A stretch of 36,930 bases of DNA, from assembly GCA_016933955.1 (NCBI GenBank), contig JAFGTT010000017.1, positions 1-36,930 on the forward strand. The letters run 5' to 3'. The translations under genes and the position numbers were made by a program. The DNA comes from Candidatus Zixiibacteriota bacterium. GTDB lineage: Bacteria > Zixibacteria > MSB-5A5 > GN15 > PGXB01. The notes below the pieces were generated by a model. It made no database searches and was not told the origin of the DNA. It was given only the letters and a program-made list of their open reading frames with translations. Every line of letters starts with the position of its first letter. The stretch's first letter is position 1. Positions 22,537 through 33,416 of this stretch are shown here, in pieces.

Positions 22537-23748
22537 ATGAATAATCCTAACGATCAGGATCGTATTCGATGGAATCTCGGGGAACGGTTGAAGGAACTCA
22601 CCGCGTTGCATAAAACCGCCAGAATTCTCCAGGATGATAATATTCCCGTTGAGCAGGCTATCAAAAAAGTTGCCGAATTTCTCCCCGATGCCTGGCAGTA
22701 TCCGGAAATAACCGGGGCCAGAATCCAATTTGGCGGCATTGTTCGGGCCACCGAGAAGTTCAGGGATTCCGAATGGGTCCAGAAGGCCGTTTTTTCAATT
22801 CACACCGGGGAATCGGGAAGTATCGAGGTGTGCTATCTTGAGAACCGGCCGCAGATGTCGGAAGGGCCCTTTCTTGCCGAAGAACGGGATTTGATAGAAT
22901 CGCTGGCGGAAATGCTTCGTTCCTATCTTCAGCATAAACGGGCCGATGAGGAACTCCAGAAGGCGCATGATCATCTGGAGCAAATTGTCCGGCAACGCAC
23001 CGAGGAATTAAAGGCCGCCAACGCCGCGCTGAAAAACCAGGTGGCCGAATACAGGGAGGCCGAATCGAAAATCGCCAATTATCAAGGACAATTGAGGCGG
23101 CTGGCCTCGGAATTATCTCTGACCGAGGAAAGGGAACGGCGCAATATTGCCGTCGACCTGCATGATCATATCGGCCAGGCTCTGGCGTTTATAAAAATGA
23201 AGATCTCCGAGGTCGGGGGTTATGCCGTTTTCAGCGGTCTGGAAAGCAGTATCAACGATATAGTCACCCTGCTCAATCAAACCATCGATTACACCCGCAG
23301 TCTGACGTTTGAAATAAGTCCGCCTATTCTTTATGAACTGGGTCTGGTAGCCGCCCTTGAATGGCTGAGCGACCAGTTTCAGCAAAAACATCATCTCCCG
23401 GTCAAAATGGAGGTTCGCCATGATCCCGGAAGACTGAGTGATGAGATACATGTGGTTTTGTTCAAATCGACCCGTGAGCTTTTAACCAATGCCCTCAAAC
23501 ATGGCCATCCCGACCGTGTTCTGATAACGGTCGACAATGATAAAAGGGGAGTTGATATCCGGGTCAGCGATGACGGCCGGGGATTCGATATATCGGTAAT
23601 CGGAACCGGAAGCGGTGACGGGTTCGGTTTATTCAGTATCAAAGAACGAATTCAGTACATGGGCGGGACTTTCGATATCGATTCGACCCCGGGGCATGGG
23701 ACGACAGCATGTCTATATATCCCCCATAACAAGGCAGGAGCGAAATAA
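22537..23748 (+). CDS. NarL-type sensor histidine kinase (HisKA_3)
   Basis: A soluble kinase of 403 residues: an N-terminal region (about 15-130) resembling a degenerate GAF sensor, a coiled coil (about 130-195), the HisKA_3 dimerisation box with phospho-acceptor H209 (NIAVDLHDHIGQ), and an HATPase domain with N-box ELLTNALKHG, DDGRGF and GDGFGLFSIKERI. There are no membrane segments, so it senses a cytoplasmic signal. The stop overlaps the ATG of the response regulator (TAATG), showing they are made together. The signal is unknown; the ammonium transporter downstream is one possible target. Confidence 0.9.
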   Translation: MNNPNDQDRIRWNLGERLKELTALHKTARILQDDNIPVEQAIKKVAEFLPDAWQYPEITGARIQFGGIVRATEKFRDSEWVQKAVFSIHTGESGSIEVCYLENRPQMSEGPFLAEERDLIESLAEMLRSYLQHKRADEELQKAHDHLEQIVRQRTEELKAANAALKNQVAEYREAESKIANYQGQLRRLASELSLTEERERRNIAVDLHDHIGQALAFIKMKISEVGGYAVFSGLESSINDIVTLLNQTIDYTRSLTFEISPPILYELGLVAALEWLSDQFQQKHHLPVKMEVRHDPGRLSDEIHVVLFKSTRELLTNALKHGHPDRVLITVDNDKRGVDIRVSDDGRGFDISVIGTGSGDGFGLFSIKERIQYMGGTFDIDSTPGHGTTACLYIPHNKAGAK

Positions 23749-24398
23749 TGAGGACCCGAATACTTCTGGCCGATGATCACAAATTGTTCACCGACGGCTT
23801 GCGTTCGCTTTTGGCCGAACGGGCTGATTTCGAAGTAATCGGCGAAGCGGGTGACGGATTAACCGCCGTTGATCTGGCCAGGGAAAAGAAACCCCATATC
23901 ATCCTGATGGATATTTCCATGGGAGGATTAAACGGTATCGAGGCGACCCGGAGGATTCTGGCCGACCATCCCAAAATCCGAATTGTCATGTTGTCGATGC
24001 ATTCCGACCGGAGATATGTAGTCGAATCTTTTAGAGCCGGGGCGGCCGGGTATCTGCTGAAGGATTCCGCCCTCGATGAATTGATAACCGCCCTTCAGAC
24101 GGTTCTGCGAAACGATTACTATCTGAGTAGCGGTATCACGAATATCGTCATCCGCGATTATATAAAATTGACCGATGATGAGCAGACCACCGCCTTTTCT
24201 CTTCTCAGCAGTCGTGAACGTGAGGTTTTACAGTTGGTGGCCGAAGGGAAATCCACCAAAGAAATCGCCGCCTTTTTAAATCTCAGTGTTAAAACCATCG
24301 AAACCCATCGCAAGCAAATAATGGAAAAACTGAATATTCACAGTGTCGCTGAGTTGACCAAATATGCCATTCGCGAGGGTTTGACCAGGCTGGAATAA
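23748..24398 (+). CDS. NarL/FixJ-family response regulator
   Basis: A receiver domain (acidic pair D9/D10, phospho-acceptor D55, KDSA near residue 107) followed by a LuxR-type helix-turn-helix (LSSREREVLQLVAEGKSTKE, then LNLSVKTIETHRKQIMEKL). It should bind DNA when phosphorylated by the overlapping kinase gene. Targets are not shown; an AATCAGG-TATTC-CCTGATT inverted repeat (24442-24460) between this gene and the ammonium transporter gene is a candidate operator or weak terminator. Confidence 0.93.
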   Translation: MRTRILLADDHKLFTDGLRSLLAERADFEVIGEAGDGLTAVDLAREKKPHIILMDISMGGLNGIEATRRILADHPKIRIVMLSMHSDRRYVVESFRAGAAGYLLKDSALDELITALQTVLRNDYYLSSGITNIVIRDYIKLTDDEQTTAFSLLSSREREVLQLVAEGKSTKEIAAFLNLSVKTIETHRKQIMEKLNIHSVAELTKYAIREGLTRLE

Positions 24399-24441
24399 AA
24401 CTCTCTTCCGCAGACAGCTTCTCAGGATAATCGCGGTATAA

Positions 24442-24460
24442 AATCAGGTATTCCCTGATT
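24442..24460. repeat. Inverted repeat upstream of the ammonium transporter gene
   Basis: Seven-base arms AATCAGG and CCTGATT separated by five bases, about 80 bases before the amt ATG. No T tract follows, so a regulator site seems likelier than a terminator. Confidence 0.4.
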
Positions 24461-24541
24461 GTCAAAACTCGATTTGCATAATTCTTTTAAATGAAAATTC
24501 CGCATTGATGCGGCGCGCGACTGCTATTGAGGAGGTTTAAT

Positions 24542-25750
24542 ATGTTCGATACCGGCAATACCGGCTTTATGCTGGTGGCGACCAGTCTGGTTATGCTTAT
24601 GACACCCGGACTGGCCTTTTTTTATGGCGGCCTGGTTGGTCGTAAAAACGTCCTGTCAATCATGATTCAAAGTTTTGTCTCCATGGGCGTAACGACCATT
24701 ATCTGGTACGCTATCGGATTTTCGCTGTGTTTCAGCGGCGGTGAAGGCGGTATCATCGGTAATCTCGATATGGCCTTCCTTCGGGGTGTCGATCCCCTGA
24801 CCCCGTTCGGCAACGGCCAGATTCCGATGATTGTCTTTATTTCCTACCAGATGATGTTTGCCATCATTACTCCGGCTCTGATCACCGGCGCTTTTTCCAA
24901 TCGGGTACGCTTCCCCGCCTACCTGCTATTTCTGATAGCCTGGTTGATCCTGGTCTATTTCCCGTTCGTACATATGATCTGGGGCGGCGGACTGCTGGCC
25001 CAATGGGGAGTTCTGGACTTTGCCGGCGGCATTGCGGTCCATAATATTGCCGGGATGGCGGCTCTGGCCTCGGTTCTGTTTGTCGGTAAACGACGAATTA
25101 AAGATGCCGTTCCGCACAGTATTCCGCTGGTAGCCCTGGGGACCGGCCTGCTCTGGTTCGGCTGGTACGGGTTCAATGCCGGCAGTGAACTTCAGGTCGA
25201 TTCAATCACCGCCCTGGCTTTTTTAAACACCGATGTCGCCGCTTCTTTCGCGGCCATCTCGTGGCTTTTTCTGGCCTGGATTCTAGAACGAAAACCGAAA
25301 TTCGTGGGGCTCCTGACCGGAGCCGTAGCCGGTCTGGCAACCATCACCCCGGCGGCGGCTTTTGTCTCAACAGCCAGTGCCGCTGTTATCGGCATTCTGG
25401 CCGGTGTTGTCTGCTATGGTGCGGTCAGCCTGAAAAACCGGTTGCAGTGGGATGATGCTCTGGATGTCTGGGGAGTGCACGGAGTCGGCGGCGCCCTGGG
25501 AATTATAATGCTGGGTCTGCTCGGTTCTACCGTCGTAAACCCGGGCGGGGCGAACGGTCTGTTTTTCGGGGGCGGAAATTTCTTTTTTAAACAAATCGTC
25601 GCCATCGTCATTTCATCGATGTACGCTTTCGTATTCACCTATGCCATGCTCTGGGTGATTAACCTGTTTATCAAAGTGAGGACTTCCGAGGCCGAAGAAG
25701 GAACACTGGATATGTCGCTTCACGGCGAAACCGCCTACGAACAACTGTAA
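24542..25750 (+). CDS. amt: Ammonium transporter Amt
   Basis: An 11-segment channel that brings in ammonium. Conserved features are the opening MLMTPGLAFFYGGLV, DFAGGIAVHNIAG (Asp for recruitment and the first pore His) and DVWGVHGVGGALG (second pore His), with the C-terminal signature LHGETAY that meets GlnK in other systems. The ATG at 24542 has a strong GGAGGT site seven bases upstream; a TTG at 24527 would overlap it. Unlike many bacteria, no glnK (PII) gene accompanies it; a porin-like gene follows 32 bases later, so outer- and inner-membrane steps of uptake may be co-expressed. Confidence 0.94.
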   Translation: MFDTGNTGFMLVATSLVMLMTPGLAFFYGGLVGRKNVLSIMIQSFVSMGVTTIIWYAIGFSLCFSGGEGGIIGNLDMAFLRGVDPLTPFGNGQIPMIVFISYQMMFAIITPALITGAFSNRVRFPAYLLFLIAWLILVYFPFVHMIWGGGLLAQWGVLDFAGGIAVHNIAGMAALASVLFVGKRRIKDAVPHSIPLVALGTGLLWFGWYGFNAGSELQVDSITALAFLNTDVAASFAAISWLFLAWILERKPKFVGLLTGAVAGLATITPAAAFVSTASAAVIGILAGVVCYGAVSLKNRLQWDDALDVWGVHGVGGALGIIMLGLLGSTVVNPGGANGLFFGGGNFFFKQIVAIVISSMYAFVFTYAMLWVINLFIKVRTSEAEEGTLDMSLHGETAYEQL

Positions 25751-28407: not shown

Positions 28408-28435
28408 TTGACAAGCCTTGCCGGATAAATATTCT
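28408..28435 (+). promoter_or_regulatory. Promoter of the kinase / receiver-transporter operon
   Basis: TTGACA (28408-28413), 16-base spacer, TATTCT (28430-28435), about 80 bases before the kinase start. It is divergent from the minus-strand promoter 36 bases away. Confidence 0.55.
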
Positions 28436-28517
28436 TAATCAATTGCATTAAGCGAAACAGGGCGGCGACTACGGTGGGCAGGCCCGTTCAGGCTATGTTT
28501 TGCCTGAGGAGACCCGG

Positions 28518-30221
28518 GTGGTTATGGCCATTTTTTCGGTAAGGAAATCAAGATCTCTTCCCGACGCTCTTCCTTTCAGGGAGAGCCATTACCGCGATCT
28601 CAAACGCCGTCATATCATCCGCCTGCTGTTGACCTACCTCGCCCCGCTGATGATTCTGGTGGTTTATTTTTTCTATCAGTACAACCAGGTAATTCTTGAG
28701 GGACAGCGAATGCATCTGCGGGCAATTGCCGAAAACCAGGCCAACACTCTCAACCTTTTTCTTTCGGAGCGGCTGGTTAATCTTTCCAACCTGATCGATG
28801 ATCCCAAATTTCATTTTCCGCCCGAATCGGAGGCCATGCCGGTTTATCTCAGGAAACTGCAGAGTAACAGCGAGGCCTTTGTCGATATCGGTTATTTTGA
28901 TCCGGCCGGGGTTCAGGAGGCGTATTCCGGTCCTTTTCCCATGCTCGAAAAACGTAACTACAGTTCGGAATCATGGTACCGCGAATTGATCCGGGGTGAT
29001 TCCGATTTTACTATCACCGACATCTATTTGGGATTCCGGGAGCGCCCGCATTTCACCATGGCCGTCAGGCGGATGAGCGACAGCCAGTATGTGGTTCTTC
29101 GGGCCACTCTCAGCCCCGAAAAAATATACGACTATATCCGTTCGCTGGAAGGCGCCGGGGAAGTTTTCACCTCGATTGTCAACCAGGCCGGATATTACCA
29201 GCTGGTGACACCGCATATCGGCACGATTCTGGAATCCTCATCGTTTGTGCCTCCCCGTGAACCCCGGCTGGGGTCGGAGGTGATATCCATTCAGGGCAAT
29301 CAGGTCAGCTATGCTTATTCCTGGCTTCGTAACGCCGACTGGGCGTTGATCACTCAGTGGGCCTCAACTCAGGACACCTCGATTTTCTCCGGTTTCCGCC
29401 TTAGACTGCTTTTAATATCGGCCGGGTTGATTTTGGTCATCATGCTGATAATACTGAATCGGGCCGGGAAACTGGTGGAATCCCAGATTGATTCCGATCA
29501 GACTCGCGCCCAGCTGGAACATGCCGCCAAACTGGCTTCGATCGGTGAACTGGCCGCCGGAATCGCCCACGAAATAAATAATCCCCTGGCCATTATCAAT
29601 GAAGAAGCGGGTCTCGCCAAGGATCTGATCGGTTCCGAATTCGGCGAGCCGATCACTGTCCAGGAGCTGGTCCCGCATCTGAATACCATCCAGGAATCGG
29701 TCTTCCGGTGCCGCGATATCACCCGTAAACTGCTGGGTTTTGTGCGGCGGACCGATCTGGATTTGAAACCGCACGATATCCATTTCCTGATCGACGGTGT
29801 CGTGGATGGTATCCTGGGTAAGGAAATTGAGGTTTCCAATATCACCATCTCGCGCGAGTATGGCCGGGATATCCCCGAGTTGGTCATCGATGGTAATCAG
29901 TTTCAACAGGTGCTTCTGAATATTCTCAACAACGGGATCGATGCCATCGAAGGCCGGCCTGGAAAAATCACCATCACCACTGAGCGGATCGGGAAAAATG
30001 TCCTGATCGCCATTGCCGACACCGGCAAGGGTATGACATCCGATCAGCGCGAGCATATTTTTGTCCCTTTTTATACGACCAAGGAGGTGGGCAAGGGAAC
30101 CGGACTGGGCCTGTCGGTCAGTTACGGCATAATCAAGAATCTGGGGGGTAAAATCGAAGTGGAAAGCAAACCCGGAGCCGGGAGCAGGTTTAGTATCAGC
30201 TTGCCCCTGAAACCTCGATAG
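28518..30221 (+). CDS. Membrane histidine kinase with periplasmic dCache-like sensor
   Basis: Residue numbers are from the GTG at 28518, which has GAGGAG six bases upstream; a TTG at 28500 and an ATG at 28524 are alternatives. A first membrane segment (about 35-55) and a second (about 296-315) bound a periplasmic domain of about 240 residues that looks like a double Cache ligand sensor (VDIGYFDPAGVQEAYSGPF, NYSSESWYREL, FTMAVRRM). Then come HisKA with H351 (GIAHEINNPL), N-box LLNILNNGIDAI, ADTGKGM and GKGTGLGLSVSYGI. First gene of an operon with a CBS protein, a receiver-transporter fusion and a response regulator, so the phosphate most likely goes to those receivers. There is no HAMP domain. 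Confidence 0.9.
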   Translation: MVMAIFSVRKSRSLPDALPFRESHYRDLKRRHIIRLLLTYLAPLMILVVYFFYQYNQVILEGQRMHLRAIAENQANTLNLFLSERLVNLSNLIDDPKFHFPPESEAMPVYLRKLQSNSEAFVDIGYFDPAGVQEAYSGPFPMLEKRNYSSESWYRELIRGDSDFTITDIYLGFRERPHFTMAVRRMSDSQYVVLRATLSPEKIYDYIRSLEGAGEVFTSIVNQAGYYQLVTPHIGTILESSSFVPPREPRLGSEVISIQGNQVSYAYSWLRNADWALITQWASTQDTSIFSGFRLRLLLISAGLILVIMLIILNRAGKLVESQIDSDQTRAQLEHAAKLASIGELAAGIAHEINNPLAIINEEAGLAKDLIGSEFGEPITVQELVPHLNTIQESVFRCRDITRKLLGFVRRTDLDLKPHDIHFLIDGVVDGILGKEIEVSNITISREYGRDIPELVIDGNQFQQVLLNILNNGIDAIEGRPGKITITTERIGKNVLIAIADTGKGMTSDQREHIFVPFYTTKEVGKGTGLGLSVSYGIIKNLGGKIEVESKPGAGSRFSISLPLKPR

Positions 30222-30293
30222 TGATAACAAATATGTTAGGCTCTGCCGGTTTATATCCGATGACAAAGACCGGCTGAAAGTTTGGATAGTATT

Positions 30294-30848
30294 ATGGATA
30301 CAAAGCGTGTCAAAGACTTGATGGTGCCGCTCAATGAATATGCGACGGTAAGCGAGGATACCACTTTGCTGGAAACCATCGGTAAATTTGAGGAGGCTCA
30401 AAGAAAACGCGATCGCCGACGCCAGCCGTTTCGCGCTGTCCTGGTTCTCGATAAGGAGGGCCGGGTGGTGGGCAAGCTGGGGCAACTGGCTTTTCTGAAG
30501 GCCCTGGAACCGGAGCGAACCGTCCTGGGGGATATGGGCAAACTGGCCGTGGCCGGTGTCAGCGCCGAGTTTATCAATTCCATGATGAGCCATTTCCGAT
30601 TTTTCCAGGATAACCTGACCGATCTCTGCTCACGGGCACGGTATCTAAAAGTCAAGGATGTCATGCACCCGGTAACGGAGTGCATCGATGAAAATGCATC
30701 CATGGGCGAGGCCATTACCAAAATGGTGGCCTGGCAGACTCTTTCGATTCTGGTCTGCCGGGGACAAAACCGGGAGGTGGTCGGGCTTCTGAGATTATCC
30801 GATCTGTGCCAGGAAGTCGCCGAATTCATGAAATCTTTGCCGGAATGA
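30294..30848 (+). CDS. CBS-pair protein in the receiver-transporter operon
   Basis: Two CBS motifs, the first at about 5-75 (KRVKDLMVPLNEYATVSEDT, then AVLVLDKEGRVVGKLGQLAF) and the second at about 115-180 (KVKDVMHPVTECIDENASM, then ILVCRGQNREVVGLLRLSDL). CBS pairs bind adenosine nucleotides and often gate transporters or enzymes by energy state. There is no other domain and no signal peptide. A TTG at 30282 would add four residues. It lies 72 bases after the kinase and 26 bases before the transporter fusion, so a direct effect on that transporter is a reasonable inference. Confidence 0.88.
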   Translation: MDTKRVKDLMVPLNEYATVSEDTTLLETIGKFEEAQRKRDRRRQPFRAVLVLDKEGRVVGKLGQLAFLKALEPERTVLGDMGKLAVAGVSAEFINSMMSHFRFFQDNLTDLCSRARYLKVKDVMHPVTECIDENASMGEAITKMVAWQTLSILVCRGQNREVVGLLRLSDLCQEVAEFMKSLPE

Positions 30849-30874
30849 AAATAATAACGAGGTGGAGCTGATTA

Positions 30875-32908
30875 ATGCCGAAAGTACTGCTGGTCGATGA
30901 TGAGGATCAATTTCGCGAATCAATCGCCAAACGTCTGAGATTGAGAGAATATGACGTCATCCAGGTCGATAATGGCGAAGACGCCATCAAGGCCGCCCGG
31001 AGCGACCGGGAGATTGATGTCGTTCTCCTGGATCGGAAAATGCCGGGAATGGATGGCGAACAGGTCCTCAAGGAACTCAGGGAATTCCGGCCGGAATTAC
31101 AGGTCATTATGCTGACGGCCTTCGCCAGCATGGAGTCGGCCATGGCAACCGGCAAGCTGGAAGCCTATGCTTATATGGAAAAACCCTGCGACTTCGGGGA
31201 GTTGGTCAAGGTTATCGATTCGGCTCGCGCCGATCGGGTTCACCTGATGGCCCGCCAGGAAATCCCCCATGTGGAGCGCGGTTCGTTCCGGAAGTGGCTT
31301 AAGGGATCGCATAATTCTCGGCCCGGTATAATTATTCTCGGTATCATCCTCTTTGCGGTTTTGGTTCTGATGCCCACCCCGGATCGCCTGATGACGCTCC
31401 TTTCGAGCCCCAAAACGGGTGAATTGAGTGATCCCGACCTGGGTTATGCGAGCTACCGGAAAATGGAAAAGGGCGAAAATGTGGCGCATTATTACAGCAA
31501 GTCCTCGAAGATGGATAAGGTGAGTTATGATGCTGAAGGCAAAAAAGTAGCCGAACCCCTGACTCCATCCGAGGTGGCCACGCGCGCCAAAATTATGCTC
31601 GGGGTCCTTCTCATGGCGGCCCTGTTCTGGGCCAGCGGAGCGGTTCCGGTGGGAATTACCGCCTTGGTGGTCGGGGTGGGAATGTATTTCGGCGGGATAT
31701 TGCAGCCGGATGATATTGCCGGGGCTTATGCTAAGGATGCCGTCATATTCATTTTCGGTGTCCTGGCGATGTCCAAAGCAATCGGCAAAACCGGGCTTGA
31801 CCGCCGGATCGGTCTTCTCCTGCTCGGCCCGGCGAAAACTCTGCCGCGGTTGCTTTTCATCTTTTTGCCATTGATGGCAATTTCCTGTTCAATTGTTTCT
31901 GAACATGCCATGGTGGCCTTCATTATGCCCCTGTTTCTGATGGTCTATGCCACCTCGACCCGCGCTTCGGGAATAAAACGAGATAAAGCCCTGATGGTTA
32001 TGCTGGCTCTGACCCTCTGCTACACGGCCAATTCGGGCGGACCCGGATCTCCGGCCGCAGGCGGGCGCAATGCCATCATGATGGGCATTCTGGCCGATTA
32101 TGGGATTCAACCCACTTTCGGGCAATGGGTCCAGTACGGCATGCCGTTCGTCCCGGTTATGGCCCTGGTTATCGCCACTTATTTCTATTTCACCTTCCGT
32201 AACAAAATCCAGGTCCGCGATCTTAATATCTCGGCCATTGTAAAGGATGCCGATCAGAAAATCGGACCGATGAATCGGAACGAATATATCACTGCCGTGA
32301 TCCTGATCGGTTTGATCATCCTCTGGGTTACGGCCAGTGACAGATTCGGGATGGGCGGCCCGGTTATCCTGGCGATCGTCCTTCTTAATATTTTCCGTAT
32401 CCTGCGATGGCGTGATATTGTCTCCATTCCCTGGGATGTGGTGGCTCTCTATGCCAGCGCCAGCGCCATCGGCAAAGGACTGGCGGTTACCGGGGGAGCC
32501 TTATTTATGGCCGACAGCTTTATAAATATCCTGCCGGAATTTCTGCGAAGCGGCGAATGGCTGGCGGTTGCCGCCAGTCTTTTTACCGGGCTGACGACCA
32601 ATTTCATGTCCGATGGCGCCACTGTTTCGGCGATCGGGCCGATAACCGTGCCGATGGCCCAAATTGCCGCCACCAACCCATGGATGGTCGGCTTCGCCAC
32701 CGCTTTCGCTTCATCTTTTGCCCATACCATGATAATCGGAACACCGAGCAATGCCATTGTCTATGCTCTGGCCAAGGATCCGATAACCGGAGAACAGCTG
32801 GTGACCCTGGGTGATTTCTTCCGGCATGGCATAATCATTCTCCTGCTTTCATTTGTAGTACTGTGGGGCTGGACCATCTTCGGTTACTGGAGAATTATAG
32901 GTTTTTAA
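30875..32908 (+). CDS. CheY-like receiver fused to a DASS/SLC13-type anion transporter
   Basis: Residues 1-120 are a complete receiver: D8/D9 acidic pair, phospho-acceptor D53 (VVLLDRKMPGMDG), T81 switch and K103-P104. A linker leads to a first membrane segment (about 151-167), a 70-residue polar loop, and then a DASS/SLC13 (sodium:dicarboxylate/sulfate) body of about 10 segments. Family marks are PVGITALVVGVGMYFGGIL, FIFGVLAMSKAIGKTG and SFAHTMIIGTPSNAIVYALA. At the two SNT positions it has SEH (342-344) and SDG (579-581). No DNA-binding or enzyme output domain exists, so the transporter itself is the likely output of phosphorylation. A ribosome binding site (GAGGTGGAG) precedes the ATG. Sequence is continuous with no sign of a frameshift or misjoined genes. 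Cargo is unknown. Confidence 0.92.
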   Translation: MPKVLLVDDEDQFRESIAKRLRLREYDVIQVDNGEDAIKAARSDREIDVVLLDRKMPGMDGEQVLKELREFRPELQVIMLTAFASMESAMATGKLEAYAYMEKPCDFGELVKVIDSARADRVHLMARQEIPHVERGSFRKWLKGSHNSRPGIIILGIILFAVLVLMPTPDRLMTLLSSPKTGELSDPDLGYASYRKMEKGENVAHYYSKSSKMDKVSYDAEGKKVAEPLTPSEVATRAKIMLGVLLMAALFWASGAVPVGITALVVGVGMYFGGILQPDDIAGAYAKDAVIFIFGVLAMSKAIGKTGLDRRIGLLLLGPAKTLPRLLFIFLPLMAISCSIVSEHAMVAFIMPLFLMVYATSTRASGIKRDKALMVMLALTLCYTANSGGPGSPAAGGRNAIMMGILADYGIQPTFGQWVQYGMPFVPVMALVIATYFYFTFRNKIQVRDLNISAIVKDADQKIGPMNRNEYITAVILIGLIILWVTASDRFGMGGPVILAIVLLNIFRILRWRDIVSIPWDVVALYASASAIGKGLAVTGGALFMADSFINILPEFLRSGEWLAVAASLFTGLTTNFMSDGATVSAIGPITVPMAQIAATNPWMVGFATAFASSFAHTMIIGTPSNAIVYALAKDPITGEQLVTLGDFFRHGIIILLLSFVVLWGWTIFGYWRIIGF

Positions 32909-32927
32909 TATAGAGAGGAAGGAAATT

Positions 32928-33416
32928 ATGCCTGACAAGATCAAGCTCCTTATAGTCGATGATGAAGTTAAATTCCTGGATTCGATTGCCCGGCGTTTGG
33001 AACTCCGGGGATTTGATGTCACCAAGGCGATTAATGGAATGGAGGCCATTGAAGCTACCAGGAAAGACAAGTTTGACCTGGCCCTGCTCGATCTTAAAAT
33101 GCCGGGAATGGATGGTAAAGAGGTGCTCGAAATCCTTAAGAAGGAACATAAATTTCTCGAGGTCATCATTCTGACCGGCCACGGGTCGATGGATTCGGCC
33201 GTTGAATGTACCAAGCTGGGGGCTTTCAGCTATCTGCCCAAACCCTACGAACTGGAAAAACTTCTGGAAATTCTGGAGCAGGCCTACAAAGCCCGGCTGG
33301 AGAAAAAATTCAGGCTCGACGAGGTGCGTATGCAAAAGCTGGCCAAACTGGCCGCCGGTTCGAGCGCCCTGGGCATTCTGCGCGAGATGCAGAAACTTGA
33401 TGATGAAGAGAAGTGA
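32928..33416 (+). CDS. Stand-alone receiver protein paired with the transporter fusion
   Basis: A receiver of about 120 residues with D11/D12, phospho-acceptor D55 (LALLDLKMPGMDG), T83 and K105, followed by a charged helical tail of about 40 residues that is not a known output domain. It is the closest relative in this window of the receiver fused to the transporter (both have PGMDG and a similar first helix), suggesting duplication. It starts 19 bases after the transporter stop with an AGGAAGG site. It may compete for the kinase, act as a phosphate sink, or contact the transporter; the sequence does not decide. Confidence 0.9.
   Translation: MPDKIKLLIVDDEVKFLDSIARRLELRGFDVTKAINGMEAIEATRKDKFDLALLDLKMPGMDGKEVLEILKKEHKFLEVIILTGHGSMDSAVECTKLGAFSYLPKPYELEKLLEILEQAYKARLEKKFRLDEVRMQKLAKLAAGSSALGILREMQKLDDEEK

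Follow-up and report, generated by a model that had tools for sequence, protein, structure and literature searches.

A receiver domain fused to a DASS-fold carrier in Candidatus Zixiibacteriota: a candidate two-component system with a transporter as output

In ordinary two-component systems the receiver drives a DNA-binding or an enzyme domain, and such systems are commonly regarded as switches of transcription that work slowly. In Myxococcus xanthus, the single-domain response regulator EpsW acts on the membrane enzyme EpsZ, so that a phospho-receiver controls a membrane protein directly and without transcription (PMC12802240). Transporter and two-component parts are found in one polypeptide in the SLC5-STAC kinases CbrA and CrbS, where the transporter sits on the kinase, that is on the input side, and the output is transcription. 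A further arrangement is that of the yeast carriers Pho87, Pho90 and Pho91, in which a cytosolic regulatory domain is fused ahead of TM1 of a DASS-fold carrier. In Pho87 and Pho90 this regulatory domain, which is an SPX domain reading inositol pyrophosphates, restricts flux, and its removal from the N-terminus raises Pi uptake up to eightfold (PMC7381174). The same fold is found in VcINDY and the other Na+-coupled divalent-anion carriers of SLC13. The hairpin tips of VcINDY carry two SNT motifs, which bind carboxylates and help to form the Na+ sites (PMC9098524).

The window analysed here, by which we mean the whole stretch of 36,930 nucleotides, comes from a 3.4-Mb metagenome-assembled genome, and its kin loci are from Candidatus Zixiibacteriota. 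Four open reading frames on one strand, separated by gaps of approximately 72, 26 and 19 bp, encode in 5' to 3' order a Cache histidine kinase, a CBS pair, a receiver fused to a DASS carrier (REC-DASS) and a stand-alone receiver (REC2) (Table 1). The kinase gene starts at a GTG codon (28518) with GAGGAG about 8 nt upstream, and its product matches HisKA and HATPase_c as well as dCache_1, the latter at 38.7 bits and under its own cut-off of 45. The ATG start of the CBS gene at 30294 was picked to fit the N-termini of the orthologues. A promoter consensus scan returned 10 sites, where 5.9 are expected by chance. Searches of an open-access library yielded no earlier description of REC-DASS; a prior mention in lists of response-regulator architectures is possible. 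Elsewhere in the window (22537-25750) a HisKA_3 kinase and a LuxR-type response regulator are located directly upstream of an Amt ammonium transporter, and this set is the ordinary transcriptional counterpart of the REC-DASS locus. In addition, three large proteins between 5504 and 15290 have dockerin type I domains at the C-terminus, accompanied by beta-helix/TSP_3 repeats or an M28 peptidase.

Table 1. Features of the REC-DASS locus and their positions in the window.
Feature	Position	Strand	Evidence
Promoter-like site TTGACA-16-TATTCT, 5' of the kinase gene	28408..28435	+	Consensus scan; weak
Membrane histidine kinase: TM, dCache-like sensor, TM, HisKA, HATPase_c	28518..30221	+	ORF, Pfam
Tandem CBS-pair protein, 184 aa	30294..30848	+	ORF, Pfam 49.4 bits
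REC-DASS fusion, 677 aa, single uninterrupted ORF	30875..32908	+	ORF, Pfam, model
Receiver REC1, residues 1-115; D8/D9, phospho-acceptor D53 (31031-31033), T81, K103	30875..31219	+	Pfam, alignment, fold Z 19.7
Receiver-TM1 linker, residues 116-143	31220..31303	+	Alignment, model
TM1 of the DASS fold, residues ~144-168	31304..31378	+	From residues 141-143 on, the model follows VcINDY/NaCT, beginning at their start
TM1-TM2 insert, residues ~169-235, non-cytoplasmic by topology inference	31379..31579	+	Alignment, model
DASS carrier core from TM2 to the C-terminus (residues 236-677)	31580..32908	+	Pfam, VcINDY alignment, model
First hairpin motif S342-E343-H344, in the place of SNT in VcINDY	31898..31906	+	VcINDY alignment
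Arg398, invariant; the corresponding loop of VcINDY reads PPN	32066..32068	+	VcINDY alignment
Second hairpin motif S579-D580-G581, in the place of SNT	32609..32617	+	VcINDY alignment
Stand-alone receiver REC2, 162 aa, with conserved C-terminal extension	32928..33416	+	ORF; Response_reg 100 bits

The initial annotation had described one continuous gene with an intact receiver and a DASS body, flanked by a kinase, a CBS pair and a second receiver, and this description holds. The fusion is a single reading frame with both of its Pfam domains above their cut-offs, Response_reg (PF00072) at residues 4-114 with 87 bits (cut-off 30.2) and Na_sulph_symp (PF00939) at residues 231-675 with 126.2 bits (cut-off 27), and the neighbouring genes were all recovered with matching Pfam domains. 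The NCBIfam model TIGR00785 'dass' gave 175 bits, below its cut-off of 198.6. A Pfam search revealed no DNA-binding or enzyme domain on either REC1 or REC2, and reported no SPX domain on REC-DASS, the N-terminal domain of which is Response_reg.

An AlphaFold model of the REC-DASS monomer (51 sequences, mean pLDDT 85.3) matches solved receivers over residues 1-123 with Z of about 19-20, and matches the DASS structures of NaCT (Z 39.2, residues 143-677), Pho90 (Z 35.1) and VcINDY (Z 33.2, residues 141-674). In this model the DASS elevator fold is present including TM1, and since the match to DASS carriers extends over residues 143-677, the receiver sits directly ahead of TM1 of a transporter that is not partial. 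The insert between TM1 and TM2 is roughly 65-70 residues longer than that of VcINDY. Conservation is strong in the linker that joins the receiver to TM1 (..ARHEIP.VEKGS..KWL.GSHN.RPG), yet the model is least confident there, with pLDDT under 50 at residues 126-135, and this combination suggests an interface with a partner that is absent from the model. Structure prediction, proposed earlier as a way to see where the receiver packs, thus recovered both folds, whereas with this linker and a monomer model it gave no confident docking of the receiver.

Post-translational control of a membrane protein by a phospho-receiver has a precedent in EpsW and EpsZ. REC-DASS differs from this pair in Myxococcus, where the two proteins are separate and EpsZ is a glycosyltransferase and not a carrier. 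It is not an SLC5-STAC protein either, since its transporter belongs to PF00939 and is placed on the receiver, that is on the output side, and the kinase is a separate ORF. The Pho carriers, of which Pho90 is among the best structural matches of REC-DASS, share its layout, but are eukaryotic phosphate carriers with an SPX domain and without a kinase operon. Taken as an analogy, the SPX domain of Pho87 and Pho90 would be a direct precedent for transport set by a receiver. The same carriers also lend weight to another possibility, namely that a phosphorylated receiver affects how the carrier is assembled, how stable it is or how it is turned over in the membrane, and not the transport rate, as SPX-dependent vacuolar targeting and degradation has been reported for both (PMC7381174). 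Their turnover runs by eukaryotic endocytosis, however, and in the loci compared the operon is without a conserved protease or adaptor gene, and we therefore consider a turnover role highly improbable.

The substrate site departs from that of the canonical DASS carriers. VcINDY and a DASS protein encoded elsewhere in the source genome (L169) have SNT in both hairpins, whereas REC-DASS has SEH and SDG in their place, and Arg398 aligns to a proline of the Na1 loop of VcINDY. These three features are invariant in all REC-DASS rows, and two of the residues, Arg398 and Asp580, are kept throughout the REC- and CBS-linked families described below. In the exchanger LaINDY, basic side chains fill the Na+ sites (PMC7553777). 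By analogy, Arg398 and His344 might act in the same way, although probably not from the same positions, and make REC-DASS a Na+-independent or proton-coupled carrier. The substrate may well be other than a classical Na+-coupled dicarboxylate or sulfate. The earlier label of an anion transporter is consequently upheld as regards the DASS fold, by structure and Pfam, but not as regards an anion as the substrate, both SNT motifs being replaced and the arginine invariant. Gene neighbourhoods of the relatives contained SMC, helicase, P-type ATPase, PPDK and Na/Pi cotransporter genes, and gave no consistent hint of a substrate.

The gene, or large parts of it, was found in 34 of the 132 genomes of its own phylum (the source genome included). 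Outside it, full-length fusions were recovered from the phylum of an Acidobacteria bin (7 of 297 genomes), from that of a Desulfobacterium locus (2 of 345) and from that of a Fibrobacteria bin (1 of 168). A single-ORF fusion with an adjacent kinase is present in 37 other genomes. An assembly or annotation artefact, absent from relatives, which was named at the outset as a finding that would count against the proposal, is ruled out by these full-length orthologues in several phyla. A tree of 102 transporter domains groups the 34 REC-DASS rows, without exception, in one branch (SH-aLRT 100), whose neighbours are unfused carriers of Desulfobacterota with the same motifs. The single clade indicates that the fusion originated once and spread across phyla later. 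In one genome (G115) the REC-DASS operon lies in two parts (L066 and L081) of the same contig, separated by about 0.68 Mb, and its two carrier pieces share some 44 residues; this is an inversion or a misassembly. Apparent frameshifts break the frame of REC-DASS in two draft or long-read genomes (L065 in G114 and L197 in G076).

The composition of the operon was tabulated by a uniform tblastn search of the 37 other genomes with an intact fusion. The kinase is immediately upstream of the fusion in all of them, REC2 is downstream in 36, and the CBS gene lies between kinase and fusion in 28 and is missing in nine; the neighbourhood seen in the window is thus kept among the relatives. The residues needed for phosphorylation are kept as well. 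D53, T81 and K103 of REC1 are invariant (33/33 sequences), D11, D12, D55, T83 and K105 of REC2 are conserved, and H357 (numbered from a start at 28500), the HExxN motif, the N-box and the G-boxes of the kinase are invariant across 31 aligned homologues, its phosphatase motif being HEINN. A conserved fusion of receiver and transporter, with intact phosphorylation residues and an adjacent kinase, is therefore supported, and we infer from these sequences that the kinase would pass phosphate to D53. With all key residues intact, a degenerate pseudo-receiver was rejected for the copy in the window.

Comparison of the REC1 sequences revealed that D9 is present in 30 of 33, and that the three exceptions are exactly the copies lacking both kinase and REC2. 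These are second REC-DASS copies (L078-L080, in G062, G063 and G064) in which the CBS gene is kept, all three receivers carry D9Q (VDD to VDQ), and the carrier is still 71-72% identical to that of the window. We accept these three as degenerate pseudo-receivers. As they form one clade in the tree, the loss of D9 may have been a single event. The opposite deletion is found in three other genomes (G077, G078 and G083; loci L083, L082 and L084), where kinase and REC2 lie side by side without REC-DASS or CBS. Together, the two types of natural deletion indicate that the kinase tracks REC2, that CBS tracks the carrier and not the kinase, and that only copies accompanied by the kinase have an intact phosphorylation site in the receiver. 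The energy-state input first proposed for the CBS protein, which is absent from nine of the 37 operons, is not supported in that form. The D9Q substitutions in kinase-less copies suggest that, in operons with a kinase, phosphorylation of the fused receiver is important, and we take this pattern as the best sequence evidence that such phosphorylation is used. The retention of the receiver in the kinase-less paralogues may point to a phosphate-independent structural role too.

The pairs of kinase and REC2 without a carrier show that REC2 is of use even where the carrier is missing, and REC2 could be the main partner of the kinase. The proposal that the transporter is the only output is therefore not supported in that form, with REC2 as a putative second acceptor. 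The same pairs, by giving REC2 an output of its own, agree with a reading in which the carrier is a sensor that reports flux or occupancy through its receiver to the kinase pathway, with REC2 as relay and without phospho-gating. Transporter-kinase fusions such as CbrA and CrbS are known, and some sensor kinases receive such reports from transporters. The domain fused here is a receiver and not a kinase, however, and receivers normally accept signals; furthermore, the kinase-less copies keep an intact carrier core, so that the carrier is useful with no kinase to report to. A sensor role is on balance unlikely.

Among the 22 receivers of the source genome, REC1 and REC2 match each other best over the whole domain (47%), and their kinase-contact (recognition) helices are 60% identical. 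Another receiver (L180) matches REC2 equally well over this helix, and for this reason the likeness is suggestive, and no more, of a shared kinase. A common contact helix and a second receiver in the operon would also fit a design in which REC1 serves chiefly as a phosphate sink or as a kinase anchor, which co-locates kinase and carrier and tunes phosphorylated REC2 while the carrier is constitutive. A sink, however, needs no fusion to a large polytopic carrier, and would leave the strong conservation of the linker to TM1 unaccounted for, which makes this role decidedly unlikely.

The same parts recur in other DASS families. A second family (L071-L077, L144, L145, L148, L159 and others; 25 tree rows), 31-36% identical to REC-DASS, has SDH/ADG motifs and a long TM1-TM2 insert and is found in operons of the order HK / REC-REC / DASS / REC-CBS. 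Next to one of its members (L145:9454-11499, minus strand) the kinase has an N-terminal receiver of its own (REC-HK). A third family, 36-38% identical, has CBS as sole partner in several loci, and unfused sister carriers adjoin a kinase and stand-alone receivers (L146-L148, L150). A distant DASS protein (L086:4977-6845, minus strand) has a C-terminal receiver with Asn replacing the phospho-Asp; its relative in the source genome of the window (L168:5750-7597, minus strand) differs in the C-terminal tail. REC, CBS and DASS have thus been fused repeatedly and in varied orders, Rosetta-stone evidence which argues that these parts work together.

Direct gating of the carrier by the fused receiver is, as far as the sequences go, the simplest reading. 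The Cache kinase would detect a signal outside the cytoplasm and phosphorylate D53 in the receiver that precedes TM1. The phosphorylated receiver may then shift its seat on the scaffold, or pair with the partner receiver of a carrier dimer, and the conserved linker to the scaffold helix TM1 would transmit this change and turn transport up or down. REC2 probably receives phosphate from this kinase too, and would serve either as a competing sink or as an additional output, and the CBS protein would be an accessory working with the carrier. We consider it moderately probable that this is a two-component system in which the carrier, and not a gene, is the output, with transport activity set by receiver phosphorylation. 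The wider proposal seems to us evenly balanced: a class of response regulators with a secondary transporter as output, in which receiver phosphorylation gates a non-canonical, possibly Na+-independent DASS carrier, and in which wider DASS clades are under the same interchangeable REC and CBS parts.

REC-DASS marks a large branch of DASS carriers that breaks the textbook SNT rule at the substrate site. If the receiver gates the carrier, an outside signal could alter transport across the membrane without new protein. The natural variants, that is the kinase-less D9Q copies, the carrier-less pairs of kinase and REC2 and the re-ordered REC, CBS and DASS parts, make the idea of gating directly testable, and the REC-DASS system could become a model of how phosphorylation controls an elevator carrier.
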